Below are positions 22,875 to 29,236 of a stretch of 38,923 nt of DNA, in pieces. The notes beneath the pieces are model-generated. The model searched no databases, was not told the DNA's origin, and saw only the letters and a program-made list of their open reading frames with translations. Each line of letters opens with the position of its first letter. Positions within the stretch are counted from its first letter, which is position 1. The stretch is taken from assembly GCA_902517535.1 (NCBI GenBank), contig CABYCK010000007.1, positions 1-38,923 on the forward strand, read 5' to 3'. The translations under genes were made by a program, and so were the position numbers. Origin of the DNA: an uncultured Pelagibacteraceae bacterium. GTDB taxonomy: Bacteria; Pseudomonadota; Alphaproteobacteria; Pelagibacterales; Pelagibacteraceae.

Positions 22875-23522
22875 ATGATTGAAAAAGTTAAACAAACTAC
22901 ATCAGAGAAACTTTTATTATTCCTTTTTTTCATTTTAGGTTTGATTGCTATTTATATATTTTTAATACTACCGCAGAAATGTTTGTTCATTAAAAATTAC
23001 AATCCAGAAAATATATCTTTTAAAAACCCCAAAGATATTGCTATTTTAAATGTTAATTGTGGAAATATTATTATTAAATTATATCCAAAGATTTCACCTA
23101 ATTCAGTTGAGAGGTTTAAGAAATTAATATCTTCAGGAAAATATAATAACATTGCTTTTCATAGAGTAATTAAAAACGTGTTAATTCAATCTGGTGATCT
23201 AGAATTTGGAAATAAAGATAACTATAATTATCTTTACATTGGTTCGGGTAATTCTGGTTTAGGGCCCATCAAGTCAGAGCTTAATGACCAAGTAGAATTT
23301 AAAGCAGGAACTTTGGGTATGGCAAGAACAAATAAATTGAATACTGAAGACAGTCAATTTTTTATTTTACTTCAGGATGCACCTTTGTTTAAAGGTGAGT
23401 ACACTCCTATAGGTGAGGTTGTTTATGGTTTTGAAATTTTAGACACAATAGCAGATGATCATAGAAGAGAATATGTCCTTCGACCTGATTTTATTAATAG
23501 CTTTAAACTACTTACCGATTAA
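22875..23522 (+). CDS. Membrane-anchored cyclophilin-type peptidyl-prolyl isomerase
   Basis: 215 residues. An N-terminal membrane segment (about 13-33) anchors a periplasmic cyclophilin domain starting near residue 55. Active-site motifs are FHRVI (95-99, with the catalytic arginine), QSGD (105-108), GTLGMAR (145-151) and SQFFI (160-164). The enzyme speeds cis-trans isomerisation of X-Pro bonds and probably helps fold exported proteins. The tryptophan of cyclosporin-sensitive cyclophilins is not seen. It starts directly after the putative secreted peptidase gene, which suggests a joint periplasmic role, and converges on potC with an 11-base overlap. Confidence 0.9.
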   Translation: MIEKVKQTTSEKLLLFLFFILGLIAIYIFLILPQKCLFIKNYNPENISFKNPKDIAILNVNCGNIIIKLYPKISPNSVERFKKLISSGKYNNIAFHRVIKNVLIQSGDLEFGNKDNYNYLYIGSGNSGLGPIKSELNDQVEFKAGTLGMARTNKLNTEDSQFFILLQDAPLFKGEYTPIGEVVYGFEILDTIADDHRREYVLRPDFINSFKLLTD

Positions 23523-24366
23523 TGCCTCTTATTCTTTCAGACCTTCGTCTTAAAAGTTCGGCAGCAACTAAGACTAATGTTGAAAGTAAAATTAAACAGG
23601 TAGCAACAGATAATATGGTTGGACTTAGCTGTTCTCTTAACCCAGTCCACATTTGAATTGGAATTGTCGTATTGTCTAACCCCGCTAAAAATAATACAAT
23701 TACCACTTCATCAAAAGAAGTTACAAAAGCAAATAAAGCCCCAGAGATAACGCCTGGTAATATTAAAGGTAAAGTAATTTTCATAAAAGTATTTACAGGA
23801 TTGCTTCCAAGACTTGCTGCAGCTCTTGTTACGCTATGATCAAATCCTGACAATGTAGCTGTGACAGTAATTACTACAAATGGGGTTCCTAAAATTATAT
23901 GAGCTAAAATTATACCAGTATGTGTTGCTGCAAGACCAGCTTTTGCCATAAAAAAGAAAATTGCTACTCCTGAAATTATTAGTGGGACAATCATAGGAGA
24001 TATTAGTGTTGCCATGATAATACCTTTGTATGGCATATATCTACTACTCAATCCTAAAGCAGCTACTGTTCCAAGAATAACTGCTCCAATTGTTGCAAAT
24101 ATTGCAATGAAAAAACTATTTTTTGCTGCTAATCCCCAAGGATTCTTTGTTCCATAAACCATATCTTTATACCATCTCATAGAAAAAGCATCTGGGTCTA
24201 GCCTCTTCATTCCATCTGTTATGACTAAAAATTCTTCTGCATTAAAGGATAATGGAAAAATTACAAATAAAGGAGCAATTAAAAAAAAGAATACACATCC
24301 ACAAATAAATAAATAGGTGTAATGCCATATTCTATAATGTGGTTCTGTATATTTTGGTAAAGCCAT
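23512..24366 (-). CDS. potC: ABC transporter permease, PotC-like
   Basis: 284 residues with six predicted membrane helices, the first at about 17-40. The cytoplasmic EAA loop that contacts the ATPase is AAASLGSNPVNTFMKITLPLILPG (spanning about 187-210), typical of the PotC/PotI subfamily of polyamine and related importers. Its start follows the potB stop with two bases between, so both permeases are translated from one mRNA. The substrate of the complete system is uncertain: polyamines by family likeness, or an ectoine-like solute by gene context. Confidence 0.88.
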   Translation of the reverse strand: MALPKYTEPHYRIWHYTYLFICGCVFFFLIAPLFVIFPLSFNAEEFLVITDGMKRLDPDAFSMRWYKDMVYGTKNPWGLAAKNSFFIAIFATIGAVILGTVAALGLSSRYMPYKGIIMATLISPMIVPLIISGVAIFFFMAKAGLAATHTGIILAHIILGTPFVVITVTATLSGFDHSVTRAAASLGSNPVNTFMKITLPLILPGVISGALFAFVTSFDEVVIVLFLAGLDNTTIPIQMWTGLREQLSPTILSVATCLILLSTLVLVAAELLRRRSERIRGINR

Positions 24367-24368
24367 AA

Positions 24369-25622
24369 TTATCCTAATTTAATATTATCTATTCCAACTA
24401 ATTTGTTATAAACCCAGTAGACAGCCAAAACTCCTACTAACAACATTAATCCCATTGCTGAAGCAAAACTCCAGTCCAAAGTATATTTCATATGATATGC
24501 AATCTGATTACTAATTAATGTTCCAGAAGCGCCGCCCACCAACTCAGGAGTAATGTAGTAACCAATTGCAAGAATAAAAACTAAAAGTGAGCCAGCTCCT
24601 ATACCTGGAATTGTTAATGGAAAATATACCTTCCAAAATGTAATAAATGGAGTTCCTCCTAAAGATTTTCCTGCTCGGACTAGACTCGGTGAAATAGTTT
24701 TCATTACACTGTAAAGAGGTAAAACCATAAATGGTAATAAAATTTGTGTCATAGCAATATAAGTGCCTGTTTCGTTATACATCATCTCTAATCTTTTATC
24801 GTCAGCCACAAAACCAATCCAAACTAAAAAATCATTAACCACTCCTTGCTGTTGAAGTAAAATCATCCAACTTGCAGTTCTGACTAGTAATGAAGTCCAA
24901 AAAGGTAAAAGAACACAAATCATTAATAAATTACTGTATTTCATTGGAAGTGTAGCAAGCAAATGAGCAATAGGGTAAGCCATTAAAAAACAGAAAAGAG
25001 TTACATAAAAAGCTATTTTAAGAGTTCTAACCCATAATTTTTTATAAATTCTTCGATCTTCTTCTACTTGAACAAATTTGCCATCTTCATTTTCATACAT
25101 GTCTACACCTTTTAAATATTTAGAATAAGAATAAGCTGGTGCGCGTCTTTGAATTGCTCTCCAATATTCAACATCTGCCCATCTTTCATGAACGGCCATA
25201 ATTTGTTCTTTATAATTCCCTTCTTCAAAAGATTTTGATTTTCGTCTTAATTTTTTAATAATACTTTTGAAACCATTTTTAGTATAATTAAGTTGAGTTG
25301 ATAATTTTCCATCTCTTTCTTCATCCATTAATTTTTGAAAATCGATATAAAAAGCTTCAAATACTTCCTCTGATGGAAGTTCTTTTCCATCCCATTTCTC
25401 CATAGCAATATATGTTTTGGGAAGAGCATTAGTAACCATACGATCATCAACGCTGTTAAATAACATTCCAAAAATAGGAGAAATATAAACTATTAATAAA
25501 AAAAATAATAAAGGTGCAACAAGAAGAAATGCTTTAAATTTATTTCTTCTCTCAACTTTTTTAAGACTCACCTCTAGAGGTATACCGTCAGTAGTTAAAA
25601 TTTTTTGTGTTTCACTGCTCAT
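24369..25622 (-). CDS. potB: ABC transporter permease, PotB-like, with large periplasmic insertion
   Basis: 417 residues, well above the roughly 280-310 of E. coli PotB. The extra length is one charged, hydrophilic stretch of about 140-150 residues between membrane helix 1 (about 32-52) and helix 2 (from about 202). It begins SVDDRMVTNALPKTY and contains many Lys/Glu and Trp/Tyr residues. The remaining helices and the EAA loop (AGKSLGGTPFITFWKVYFPL) are normal. The start is the ATG at 25622; no Shine-Dalgarno is present, and the U-run of the hairpin at 25631-25655 ends against the start codon. This permease shape also occurs in other alphaproteobacterial Pot-like systems, to my recollection. 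Confidence 0.85.
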   Translation of the reverse strand: MSSETQKILTTDGIPLEVSLKKVERRNKFKAFLLVAPLLFFLLIVYISPIFGMLFNSVDDRMVTNALPKTYIAMEKWDGKELPSEEVFEAFYIDFQKLMDEERDGKLSTQLNYTKNGFKSIIKKLRRKSKSFEEGNYKEQIMAVHERWADVEYWRAIQRRAPAYSYSKYLKGVDMYENEDGKFVQVEEDRRIYKKLWVRTLKIAFYVTLFCFLMAYPIAHLLATLPMKYSNLLMICVLLPFWTSLLVRTASWMILLQQQGVVNDFLVWIGFVADDKRLEMMYNETGTYIAMTQILLPFMVLPLYSVMKTISPSLVRAGKSLGGTPFITFWKVYFPLTIPGIGAGSLLVFILAIGYYITPELVGGASGTLISNQIAYHMKYTLDWSFASAMGLMLLVGVLAVYWVYNKLVGIDNIKLG

Positions 25623-25655
25623 AAATAAAAAGGGCGGTTAATTAATAACCGCCCT
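25623..25655 (-). terminator. Terminator-like hairpin between potD and potB
   Basis: AGGGCGGTTA (25631-25640) and TAACCGCCCT (25646-25655) form a perfect 10-bp GC-rich stem with loop ATTAA, unusual in this AT-rich region. Read on the minus strand the stem is followed by TTTTATTT and then the potB ATG at 25622. It is a classical intrinsic terminator in form, 34 bases after the potD stop, and should make potD mRNA more abundant than potBC. Confidence 0.85.
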
Positions 25656-25689
25656 AATATAATATATCATCTATATCTTTAAAAATTAA

Positions 25690-26808
25690 TTAAAGACCAG
25701 ACTTCATAGCTTCCCATTTTTCGCCGATTTCTGTACCGTTGTCAGCCCAGAATAAAGCATCAATTAGGATATAGCTTTTTGTATTGTTTGGATGAGTTGG
25801 CATTTGAGTCATCATGTTTGTCTTACCATCTTTATACCAAGGCTCACCTGCTTCAATAACTTTAAGAGAAGATTTTCTCCAAGGTGCGTAAGCAATATAC
25901 TTCGCAGAACCAGCTAAACCTTCAGTGCTAGTCATTTGTGCAATTGCTTTCATAGCATCAGACTCGTTTGGTCCACCCTTAACAACTACCATGTATTGGT
26001 AATCTAAACCTTGAGCATCCCAAACTTGTTTTAATGGCGCGCCTTCTCCAACTTCTGCGTTAAAGAATCTGCCGTTCCAACCTGTTGCCATTACAACTTC
26101 ACCCTGCATAAGTAGTTCAGGTGGTTTAGCACCAGCTGACCAAAATACGCATCCACCTTTAGGGTCTTTACAAAGAGCTTCCATCTTATCCATTGCTTTT
26201 TGAAGACCTTTTGCTTTTGAAAGTTGTTTGTAAATTTTCTTTCCACCTTTACCTGGCTTAGTTCCCTCAGCTGCTAATGCCATTTCTAAATTATGCATAG
26301 CACCTTTGTAAACACCTCTTTTACCTGGCCATGTTTTGGTGTCAAAGAAATCTTTTATAGTTTTTGGTTTTTTGCTACCAATTTTTGCATCATGGTAAGC
26401 ATATGTCCAAGAATATAAAATATTTCCTACAGCACAATCACTAGGCATTGACGTAAAGAAATCTTTACTCGCTTTAGTTCCATCAGGAGCTGCTGGAAAG
26501 TCTTTGTCAAAATCAAATTTAACAAATAAACCTTCGTCACATCCATTGATAGTGTCCATTGCGAAAACGTCCATTATGTCCCAAGTAATTTTACCTGCTG
26601 CTTTTTGTGCTTTAACTTCAGATAATCCACCTGAATAGTCTACCCAGTTAATAGGTATGCCTAATTTTTTTGCAGTTGGATCACCATAACCTAATTTTTG
26701 ACTTTCTGTGTAAGCTCCACCCCATGATGCAACCGTAACTGCATAAGAAGTTGAAGAAATTGAAAGAGCAAAAACTAAGGTAAGTAATAGTTTACTTAAT
26801 TTTCTCAT
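25690..26808 (-). CDS. potD: ABC transporter periplasmic solute-binding protein, PotD-like
   Basis: 372 residues with a Sec signal peptide ending SSTSYA (about 23), then VTVASWGGAYTESQ, the usual start of a class with PotD/iron-type binding proteins. The two-lobed fold is supported by WDIMDVFAMD and VMATGWNGRFF, which lie where ligand contacts occur in PotD relatives. Several cysteines (in NGCDEG, PSDCAV, ALCKDPKGGC) may form disulfides. It has its own promoter (26844-26872), a strong Shine-Dalgarno (AAGGGGA), a downstream hairpin, and richer GC than its neighbours, all pointing to high expression. The ligand is not determined; polyamine or ectoine-like zwitterions are the candidates. Confidence 0.88.
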   Translation of the reverse strand: MRKLSKLLLTLVFALSISSTSYAVTVASWGGAYTESQKLGYGDPTAKKLGIPINWVDYSGGLSEVKAQKAAGKITWDIMDVFAMDTINGCDEGLFVKFDFDKDFPAAPDGTKASKDFFTSMPSDCAVGNILYSWTYAYHDAKIGSKKPKTIKDFFDTKTWPGKRGVYKGAMHNLEMALAAEGTKPGKGGKKIYKQLSKAKGLQKAMDKMEALCKDPKGGCVFWSAGAKPPELLMQGEVVMATGWNGRFFNAEVGEGAPLKQVWDAQGLDYQYMVVVKGGPNESDAMKAIAQMTSTEGLAGSAKYIAYAPWRKSSLKVIEAGEPWYKDGKTNMMTQMPTHPNNTKSYILIDALFWADNGTEIGEKWEAMKSGL

Positions 26809-26919: not shown

Positions 26920-26938
26920 AATCAATCTCAGATTGATT
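26920..26938 (-). other. Inverted repeat over the potA stop codon
   Basis: AATCAATC (26920-26927) and GATTGATT (26931-26938) are perfect 8-base arms around TCA, which is the complement of the potA stop codon TGA. The 3-base loop is tight. On the transcribed strand it is followed by CAACAAAAAAA, not a U-run, so it is not a standard terminator for potA. Confidence 0.5.
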
Positions 26939-28022
26939 TTGGATCCAACGCTCTAGCATCGTGACTATTCCAGCCAACGTTAATCTCATTTCCACGTTTT
27001 ATATCCATTCTAGCGGAACTATTTGGAACTTTAAGAATAAATTCTTTATTACCCAATAAATTTAATCTTACTCTTGCATGATCACCGTGGTAAATAATTT
27101 CTTCGATTTTTCCTTTGTGTTTGTTGTCCATTTTTTCTTCAGGATCTATAATTGCTCTTTCAGGTCTTAGAGAAACTTTAGTTTTTTCTCCTTTTGACTT
27201 AACACTAATTGGATTTGAAATTATTTCACCGCCTGTATCTAGTTTGACTTTACATTTTCCACCTGAGATATCAGTAACTTCTCCTGCAAAGGTATTATTT
27301 TCTCCAATAAATTCTGCTACGAATGAGTTAACTGGTTCTTCATATAATTTATCAGGCGTAGAGAGTTGTTGAACTTTCCCATCATTGAAAACTGCTATTC
27401 TACTAGACATTGTTAAGGCTTCACTTTGATCATGAGTTACATATACTACTGTAACTCCAATGCTTTCATGAATATGTTTAATCTCATACTGCATACTTTC
27501 TCTTAAATTTTTATCTAGAGCCCCTAGAGGTTCATCCATCAAAACTAGTTGAGGATCAAATACCAAAGATCTAGCTACAGCCACCCTTTGTTGTTGACCT
27601 CCTGATAATTGATTGGGCATTCTTTTTTCAAATCCAGATAATGAAACCATAGATAAAGCTTTATCTACTTTTTTATCAATATCATCTTTTGAAAGTTTTC
27701 TGACTTTTAATGGAAAAGCTAAATTTTCGTAAACTGTTAAATGAGGAAACAAAGCATAATTTTGAAAAACCATTCCTATGCCTCTTTTATGTGGAGGTAT
27801 TCTTGATATAGGTTTTGAATCTAAATAAATCTCACCATTTGTCGGCGTTTCAAAACCTGCTAACATCATAAGACAAGTTGTTTTTCCTGAACCAGAAGGT
27901 CCAAGCATGGTGATAAATTCACCTTCATTGATATCAAGATTTAAATCTTTAACGACTAAAACCTTTCCATCGTAACTTTTATCTACTTTATCAAATTTAA
28001 CAAAACTTTTTGAAGACGTCAT
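26928..28022 (-). CDS. potA: ABC transporter ATP-binding protein, PotA-like
   Basis: 364 residues. It powers the Pot-like importer from the cytoplasmic face. Walker A GPSGSGKTT is at 41-49; the Q-loop is in GMVFQNYALFPHLTV; the signature LSGGQQQRVAVARSL and Walker B LVLMDEPLGALD follow, then the H-loop VTHDQSEAL. From about residue 235 a C-terminal TOBE/OB regulatory domain (FIGENNTFAGEV onwards, and SLRPERAII) is typical of PotA/UgpC/MalK-type subunits. It is the first of the transporter genes on the minus strand and is followed by a 119-base gap with a separate potD promoter. Confidence 0.92.
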   Translation of the reverse strand: MTSSKSFVKFDKVDKSYDGKVLVVKDLNLDINEGEFITMLGPSGSGKTTCLMMLAGFETPTNGEIYLDSKPISRIPPHKRGIGMVFQNYALFPHLTVYENLAFPLKVRKLSKDDIDKKVDKALSMVSLSGFEKRMPNQLSGGQQQRVAVARSLVFDPQLVLMDEPLGALDKNLRESMQYEIKHIHESIGVTVVYVTHDQSEALTMSSRIAVFNDGKVQQLSTPDKLYEEPVNSFVAEFIGENNTFAGEVTDISGGKCKVKLDTGGEIISNPISVKSKGEKTKVSLRPERAIIDPEEKMDNKHKGKIEEIIYHGDHARVRLNLLGNKEFILKVPNSSARMDIKRGNEINVGWNSHDARALDPKSI

Positions 28023-28069: not shown

Positions 28070-29236
28070 TTATTTAATATGTAATTCTCTAGATAAATTG
28101 CAGAATAATTCTGAACCATTTTCTGTTACTCTTACCGCTTCACTAGCTTCTACACCCCAGTCTCCGAATTGCATTACTGCAATCATGTGAAAAGTAACGT
28201 TAGGTTCTAAAATAGTTTTATCGCCTTTTAATATATTAAATGTTTGTTCTCCCCAGTCTGGAGGATATCCAATACCTATTGAGTATCCTGTTCTTGAATC
28301 TTTTTTAATTTTATATTTATCTAAAACTCCCCAAAATTTTTGTGCTACGTCATCAATAGTATTTCCAGGTTTTGTAGCTGAAATACCTGCATCTAAAGCT
28401 TCGTTCGTAGCTTTCATAGTATCAATCTTTTTTTTATCCTTCTCTCCCAACAAAACCGTTCGTGCCATGGGACAATGATATCTTTTATAAGCCCCAGCAA
28501 TTTCAATAATTGTTGCCTCACCTGAGACAAACTTTTCATCTGTATGAGTTAAATGAGAAGCAGAGGTCCCCTTTCCAGTTGGCAACAAAGTAGCTATACT
28601 TGGGTAGTCCCCTCCAAACTCTTTTGTTCCATTAAACAAAGCTTTTTGAATATCAGCTACAGCATCACATTGTCTTACACCTGGATTAATACTTTTGAAT
28701 GCTGTCTTCATTCCACTTTCAACTATACGAGCAGCAGATTGCATTAATTTAATTTCCTTGTTCGATTTTACGACTCTCACCCAATTAACTAATCTTTCAG
28801 CATCTTTAAATTTTGCATTAGGCAAACCTTTTTTAATAGTTTCATAACAGTAAGCTGTAAAATAATGACTATCCATTTCTAAACCGATGTTCAAATTATC
28901 CCATTTTCTTTTTTTAATTATTTCAACCAAATACTGATAGGGATGTAAGGGCCAAGTATGAATATACTTTTCATCGTACTCAATAATATTTTCATTTTTA
29001 AGATAAGTTTTAATGTATGCACCTCCTCCATCTTGCGCTCTTACAAAACAAATAGGTTCATCCTCATTTACATGAACTAGAACGCATTGAGCATAATAAA
29101 AAGACCAGGCATCATAACCAGTAAGATAGTTCATGTTTGCAGGATCATGAGACACAAGCAGATCAATGCCTTTTTTTTGCATATCAATCTTTACTTTTTT
29201 TAAACGTTCTTTGTATTCTTGTTTTTCAAAAAGCAT
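28070..29236 (-). CDS. doeA: Ectoine hydrolase (DoeA/EutD), M24 family
   Basis: 388 residues of the M24 pita-bread fold. DoeA/EutD opens the ring of ectoine (and hydroxyectoine) to N-acetyl-diaminobutyrate. N-terminal SHDPANMNYLTGYDAWSFY (29-47) and NVDSHYF-like EMDSHYFTAYCY (120-131) match this subgroup. The usual M24 metal ligands are changed: the D-x-G and D-x-T-R-T positions read EIAGAY and CPMART (245-260), as expected for the reported metal-free EutD enzymes. SRTGYSIGIGYPPDWGEQTF is another subgroup hallmark. It abuts eutA with no gap. Xaa-Pro peptidase or creatinase is the alternative, made less likely by the lost metal ligands and neighbour. Confidence 0.85.
   Translation of the reverse strand: MLFEKQEYKERLKKVKIDMQKKGIDLLVSHDPANMNYLTGYDAWSFYYAQCVLVHVNEDEPICFVRAQDGGGAYIKTYLKNENIIEYDEKYIHTWPLHPYQYLVEIIKKRKWDNLNIGLEMDSHYFTAYCYETIKKGLPNAKFKDAERLVNWVRVVKSNKEIKLMQSAARIVESGMKTAFKSINPGVRQCDAVADIQKALFNGTKEFGGDYPSIATLLPTGKGTSASHLTHTDEKFVSGEATIIEIAGAYKRYHCPMARTVLLGEKDKKKIDTMKATNEALDAGISATKPGNTIDDVAQKFWGVLDKYKIKKDSRTGYSIGIGYPPDWGEQTFNILKGDKTILEPNVTFHMIAVMQFGDWGVEASEAVRVTENGSELFCNLSRELHIK

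Follow-up and report, generated by a model that had tools for sequence, protein, structure and literature searches.

How can the start codon of a permease gene lie flush against what looks like a transcription terminator? The question arises at the potD-potB junction in the window analysed here, a 38,923-nt stretch of DNA from an uncultured Pelagibacteraceae bacterium. The pot genes are ordered potA-potD-[hairpin]-potB-potC on the minus strand (Table 1), and the ATG of the permease gene potB (25622-25620) is preceded by a perfect 10-bp stem (25655-25631) with six G-C pairs and a loop of 5 nt. The gap between stem and ATG is just 8 nt, or 9 nt when measured from the outermost G-C pair. The succession of stem, U-tract and ATG described in the original prediction is present in full, and it goes beyond what shuffling would yield: folding of the hairpin region gives z = -3.78, equalled by 0 of 200 shuffles. 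Among the four sites returned by a terminator scan of the surrounding 8.5 kb, this hairpin ranks first both in pairs and in G-C pairs.

We rejected a generic, repeated terminator because the stem pattern has a single occurrence in the organism's own genome and never exceeds one copy in any of 61 genomes of the genus. The pattern is found in 7 of these 61, a low count that fits the patchy presence of potB and the strictness of the pattern. We also rejected a second, AT-rich hairpin 3′ of the potD stop codon, which folds just slightly better than shuffles and is missed by RNAalifold. Close relatives are Pelagibacterales single-cell genomes, one of which carries an identical PotB, which places the window in SAR11 (Pelagibacterales). 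A relative of DoeA-like ectoine hydrolase (window 28070-29236; NCBIfam TIGR02993, below cut-off) adjoins potA, which suggests a compatible-solute or polyamine-linked cluster.

Table 1. Features of the pot cluster and of the potD-potB spacer (window coordinates)
Feature	Coordinates	Strand	Basis or remark
potA, ABC ATPase	26928..28022	-	NCBIfam TIGR01187, above cut-off
potD, polyamine-type solute-binding protein	25690..26808	-	Pfam SBP_bac_8, E 1e-24; position in potADBC cluster
potD-potB spacer, 67 nt, long for the lineage	25623..25689	-	
AT-rich element GATATATTATATT, -10-like, conserved just 5′ of the stem in the window's clade	25656..25668	-	Alignment and -10 scan
5′ arm of hairpin, AGGGCGGTTA	25646..25655	-	Sequence, folding, terminator scan; pairing kept in 128 loci
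Hairpin loop, TTAAT	25641..25645	-	Variable in relatives
3′ arm of hairpin, TAACCGCCCT	25631..25640	-	Sequence, folding, terminator scan; pairing kept in 128 loci
U-tract TTTTATTT, also the entire unpaired potB leader	25623..25630	-	
potB start codon, ATG	25620..25622	-	ATG in 108/108 aligned N-termini; next codons vary synonymously
potB, permease, 417 aa	24369..25622	-	Pfam BPD_transp_1; best NCBIfam matches PotB/PotH, below cut-off
potC, permease, 2 nt 3′ of potB	23512..24366	-	Best NCBIfam matches PotC/PotI, below cut-off

Conservation of the hairpin and of the potB start

Whole-genome searches of the family yielded 128 potD-potB spacers, 112 from the clade of the window and 16 from a deeper clade in which PotB is about 54-58% identical. 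Hairpin and U-tract are kept in all 128, with at least 7 T among the 8 nt 3′ of the outermost G-C pair, and no relative was found to lack the stem, in keeping with the original prediction. In 80 genomes besides that of the window, hairpin, U-tract and adjoining ATG are all present. The stem of the window's clade reads GGGCGGTTA..TAACCGCCC or a near variant, and compensatory changes are seen at positions 5 and 6 (G-C to A-T at each), 7 (T-A to C-G) and 9 (A-T to T-A). Its G-C core, GGGCGG/CCGCCC, is held more tightly in this clade than pairing alone demands. Stems of the deeper clade are different (GGCGAGAC..GTCTCGCC and others), with the same U-tract. Conservation of the zero distance, which the original prediction suggested comparing across related genomes along with that of the stem, holds in part. 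In 108 of the 112 loci of the window's clade, 7-12 nt separate the outermost G-C pair from the ATG, the others having 15 nt (two loci), 23 nt (one) and 25 nt (one), whereas in the deeper clade the hairpin stands 15-30 nt from the potB ATG, at some loci with SD-like purines in between. This implies that the terminator predates its contact with the start codon and has been retained over a wider range of relatives.

The loop varies in sequence among these spacers, and RNAalifold shows no second conserved helix. Both observations speak against a riboswitch, known or new, or a protein-binding leader. Such an element might be suspected where a conserved structure precedes a polyamine transporter gene, but no Rfam match in the window reaches the gathering score, and we consider it highly improbable. 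A permissive Rfam scan of the region, on both strands, gave sub-threshold matches only and no potC motif. It is also very unlikely that the spacer houses a separate promoter, from which a short-leader potBC mRNA would start at or near the stem. Most loci of the window's clade do have a TATAAT or TATATT element a few nucleotides 5′ of the stem, but it is absent from the deeper clade, and shuffles yield promoter-like sites at least as often as the region itself, AT-rich sequence being easily matched.

The start of potB is itself well defined. The N-terminus is conserved from codon 1, and codons 2-20 vary synonymously (Ser codon 3, for example, is TCA, AGT, AGC or TCT), indicating that translation from ATG 25622 is selected. 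A downstream start with its own ribosome-binding site, which the original prediction named as a refutation, finds no candidate: no in-frame ATG, GTG or TTG within codons 2-20 is conserved across the aligned relatives. In agreement with the original prediction, the start is not led by a Shine-Dalgarno (SD) sequence, since positions -20 to -4 hold no match of at least 3 nt. This is the common state in the genome. We surveyed 274 of its ORFs (at least 200 aa, unambiguous ATG) for SD matches of at least 4 nt in -20 to -4 and found 46, against about 21 expected by shuffling; about 83% of the unambiguous starts have no such match. A search for the 16S rRNA tail with GGATCACCTCC returned no match; in a related complete genome the tail reads GGATTACCTCC, and its anti-SD core is intact (GGATTACCTCCTTTCT). 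Because SD-less starts are the rule, the absence of an SD at potB needs no special device, and a hairpin acting in place of the missing SD, as had been proposed, is not required. The deeper relatives point the same way, since a terminator at 15-30 nt implies that potB can generally be translated without the zero distance. A literature search for hairpins adjoining SD-less starts found nothing, which is weak evidence of absence.

Transcription beyond potD

The potB hairpin has the features of an intrinsic terminator: a GC-rich stem with a short loop, a U-rich tract directly 3′, and pairing that is kept despite sequence change. Its location, between potD (SBP_bac_8) and potB (BPD_transp_1) on the same strand, is that of an internal terminator. 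Our preferred reading, to which we assign a probability of roughly 0.8, is that hairpin and U-tract act as a partial intrinsic terminator, which would also form the 3′ end of the potD mRNA and so yield an excess of PotD. Judged from sequence, the hairpin very probably stops most transcription after potD. Most transcripts would end in the U-tract, leaving an abundant, stable potD mRNA and hence surplus PotD, and the minority that read through would encode PotB and PotC. Translation of potB would then begin at ATG 25622 without an SD, as for most genes of this genome. That the U-tract would double as a short unpaired potB leader can be put down to a compact genome with minimal spacers; the median same-strand gap is 1 nt in G063, a complete SAR11 relative of 1.2 Mb. 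That termination takes place in the cell, how efficient it is, what protein ratio results and how the ribosome loads are all inferred. PotD has been reported to be very abundant (PMC8437039). The earlier proposal of a terminator-like hairpin between the binding-protein and permease genes, with potBC expressed by read-through, gains support from the conservation of stem, U-tract and adjoining ATG.

Hairpins at other junctions

Hairpins of this type are found elsewhere in the organism's own genome, which is 78% complete; about 763 kb were surveyed, and gene starts in the surveys were assigned mechanically. Sites fulfilling strict criteria for hairpin and U-tract are rare, with 15 in all, with two loci entered on both strands, against 7 in the reversed sequence; none of the 15 lies within an ORF. 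Strict sites follow potD, a livK-like binding protein, an SBP_bac_1 protein and a TRAP DctP protein. Others lie 3′ of proteorhodopsin, a sodium:solute symporter, an OmpA protein, a porin and Amt, upstream of metY, and between metK and nusA.

Several individual sites may be recorded here. A terminator-like hairpin splits proteorhodopsin from the downstream ferredoxin gene both in the own genome (L138:4011-5179) and in G063 (C1 near 369388). The metK-nusA spacer (L137:14448-14543) carries a short stem, GGGC..GCCC, followed by T8, in both SAR11 genomes. Upstream of a Cys/Met-metabolism enzyme gene (L155:15169-16506), at about L155 15100, stands a hairpin with a T9 tract, which may resemble the riboswitch-terminator region (SAM-II) known from metY of SAR11. 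In G063, two terminator-like hairpins lie in tandem 3′ of groEL (C1:1109998-1110173).

Hairpins with at least 5 G-C pairs occupy 18 of the 164 same-strand spacers of 25-200 nt in G063. They mark 10 of the 12 binding-protein-to-partner junctions but just 8 of the remaining 152 spacers (Fisher P = 9e-10), counts that are somewhat uncertain because some binding proteins were assigned from signal-peptide N-termini beside Pfam-identified permeases. The G-T pair limits of the survey script missed a few hairpins. Several nutrient-uptake operons of related genomes share the layout seen at potD-potB, and its purpose is probably to make far more binding protein than permease.

Hairpins of the same strength that end no more than 13 nt from an ATG are rare: in G063 they precede 4 of 1,164 genes, all four of them permease genes 3′ of binding-protein genes. 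Start-flush placement is a recurrent SAR11 variant. A fifth junction in G063 (dctQ164) has a stem with 4 G-C pairs, and its U-tract is kept in nearly all loci. Two of the four flush hairpins have no U-tract, one at a DctQ gene (542616) and one at a permease gene (822848-823540). The latter, which we call perm230 (G063:C1:822848-823540; L213:2848-3540; relatives L232-L261), joins a PF00497-like binding-protein gene to the permease gene. Its hairpin is kept in 30 of 30 SAR11 loci, in 24 distinct and strongly covarying stems, and ends 2-9 nt from the ATG. Most of these loci lack a U-tract, with just 3-4 T in the 8 nt after the hairpin, and termination alone therefore does not account for this class of hairpins.

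It is possible, if unlikely, that the flush hairpin acts in translation, as a second layer of PotD excess: a stem within the footprint of the 30S subunit would damp or position initiation at potB. The restriction of flush hairpins to binding-protein-to-permease junctions, together with perm230, where the contact persists mostly without a U-tract, gives such a role some weight. Against it, the deeper potB relatives have their terminator well away from the ATG, some with SD-like purines in between, a few loci of the window's own clade have 15-25 nt to spare, and genome compaction would produce short distances without any selection on translation. A broader version, which we put forward tentatively and think rather unlikely, extends the idea to a SAR11 class of flush hairpins confined to binding-protein/permease junctions. 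One stem would both form the 3′ end of the binding-protein mRNA and limit or position the SD-less start of the permease, and some members, perm230 among them, would have lost the U-tract and kept only a translational or stabilising role.

Stabilisation alone might also be considered. The full mRNA would be cut or trimmed, with the stem shielding potD mRNA against decay from its 3′ end and the potBC mRNA being lost. The same gene logic applies to the intercistronic hairpin of the Rhodobacter puf operon, as cited in PMC6238624, and the sister junction, with its flush hairpins devoid of a U-tract, would suit such a role. We nevertheless find this explanation doubtful for potB, as a U-tract present in 128 of 128 spacers is not required for protection alone.

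Few cells in the ocean are as numerous as those of SAR11, in which regulators are scarce and binding proteins make up much of the cell's protein. Partial termination after binding-protein genes, hard-wired in a hairpin, would, if true, explain how one operon gives very unequal protein yields without regulators. The start-flush form additionally offers a testable prediction on SD-less initiation beside a stable stem.

Relation to known systems

Structured RNA candidates have been described in Ca. Pelagibacter ubique, from the same clade as the window (PMC2704228). One of these motifs forms a hairpin close to genes for amino-acid transporters, and in about half of its examples a poly-U track comes next; the text of that paper makes no mention of potB, spermidine or polyamines. 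The potC RNA motif (Rfam RF01751) is marine-only, and its name points to a polyamine transporter gene, but it has no match at the potB spacer.

A closer parallel comes from the cellulolytic Clostridia, where experiments showed that internal terminators located 3′ of binding-protein genes set the ratios of ABC importer components (PMC9045158). There, as at potD-potB, a stem-loop lies between the binding-protein and translocator genes of one operon, and the inferred purpose in both is an excess of binding protein. The differences are that SAR11 belongs to a distant phylum, that its U-tract runs into the next start codon, and that terminator activity is here predicted from sequence; the passages of PMC9045158 consulted make no reference to start codons or ribosome-binding sites. 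The puf hairpin of Rhodobacter capsulatus (Klug 1987, as cited in PMC6238624) is, like that of potB, alphaproteobacterial, intercistronic and tied to a protein ratio within an operon. The puf hairpin works through segmental mRNA stability, whereas the U-tract conserved at potB is what termination would call for.
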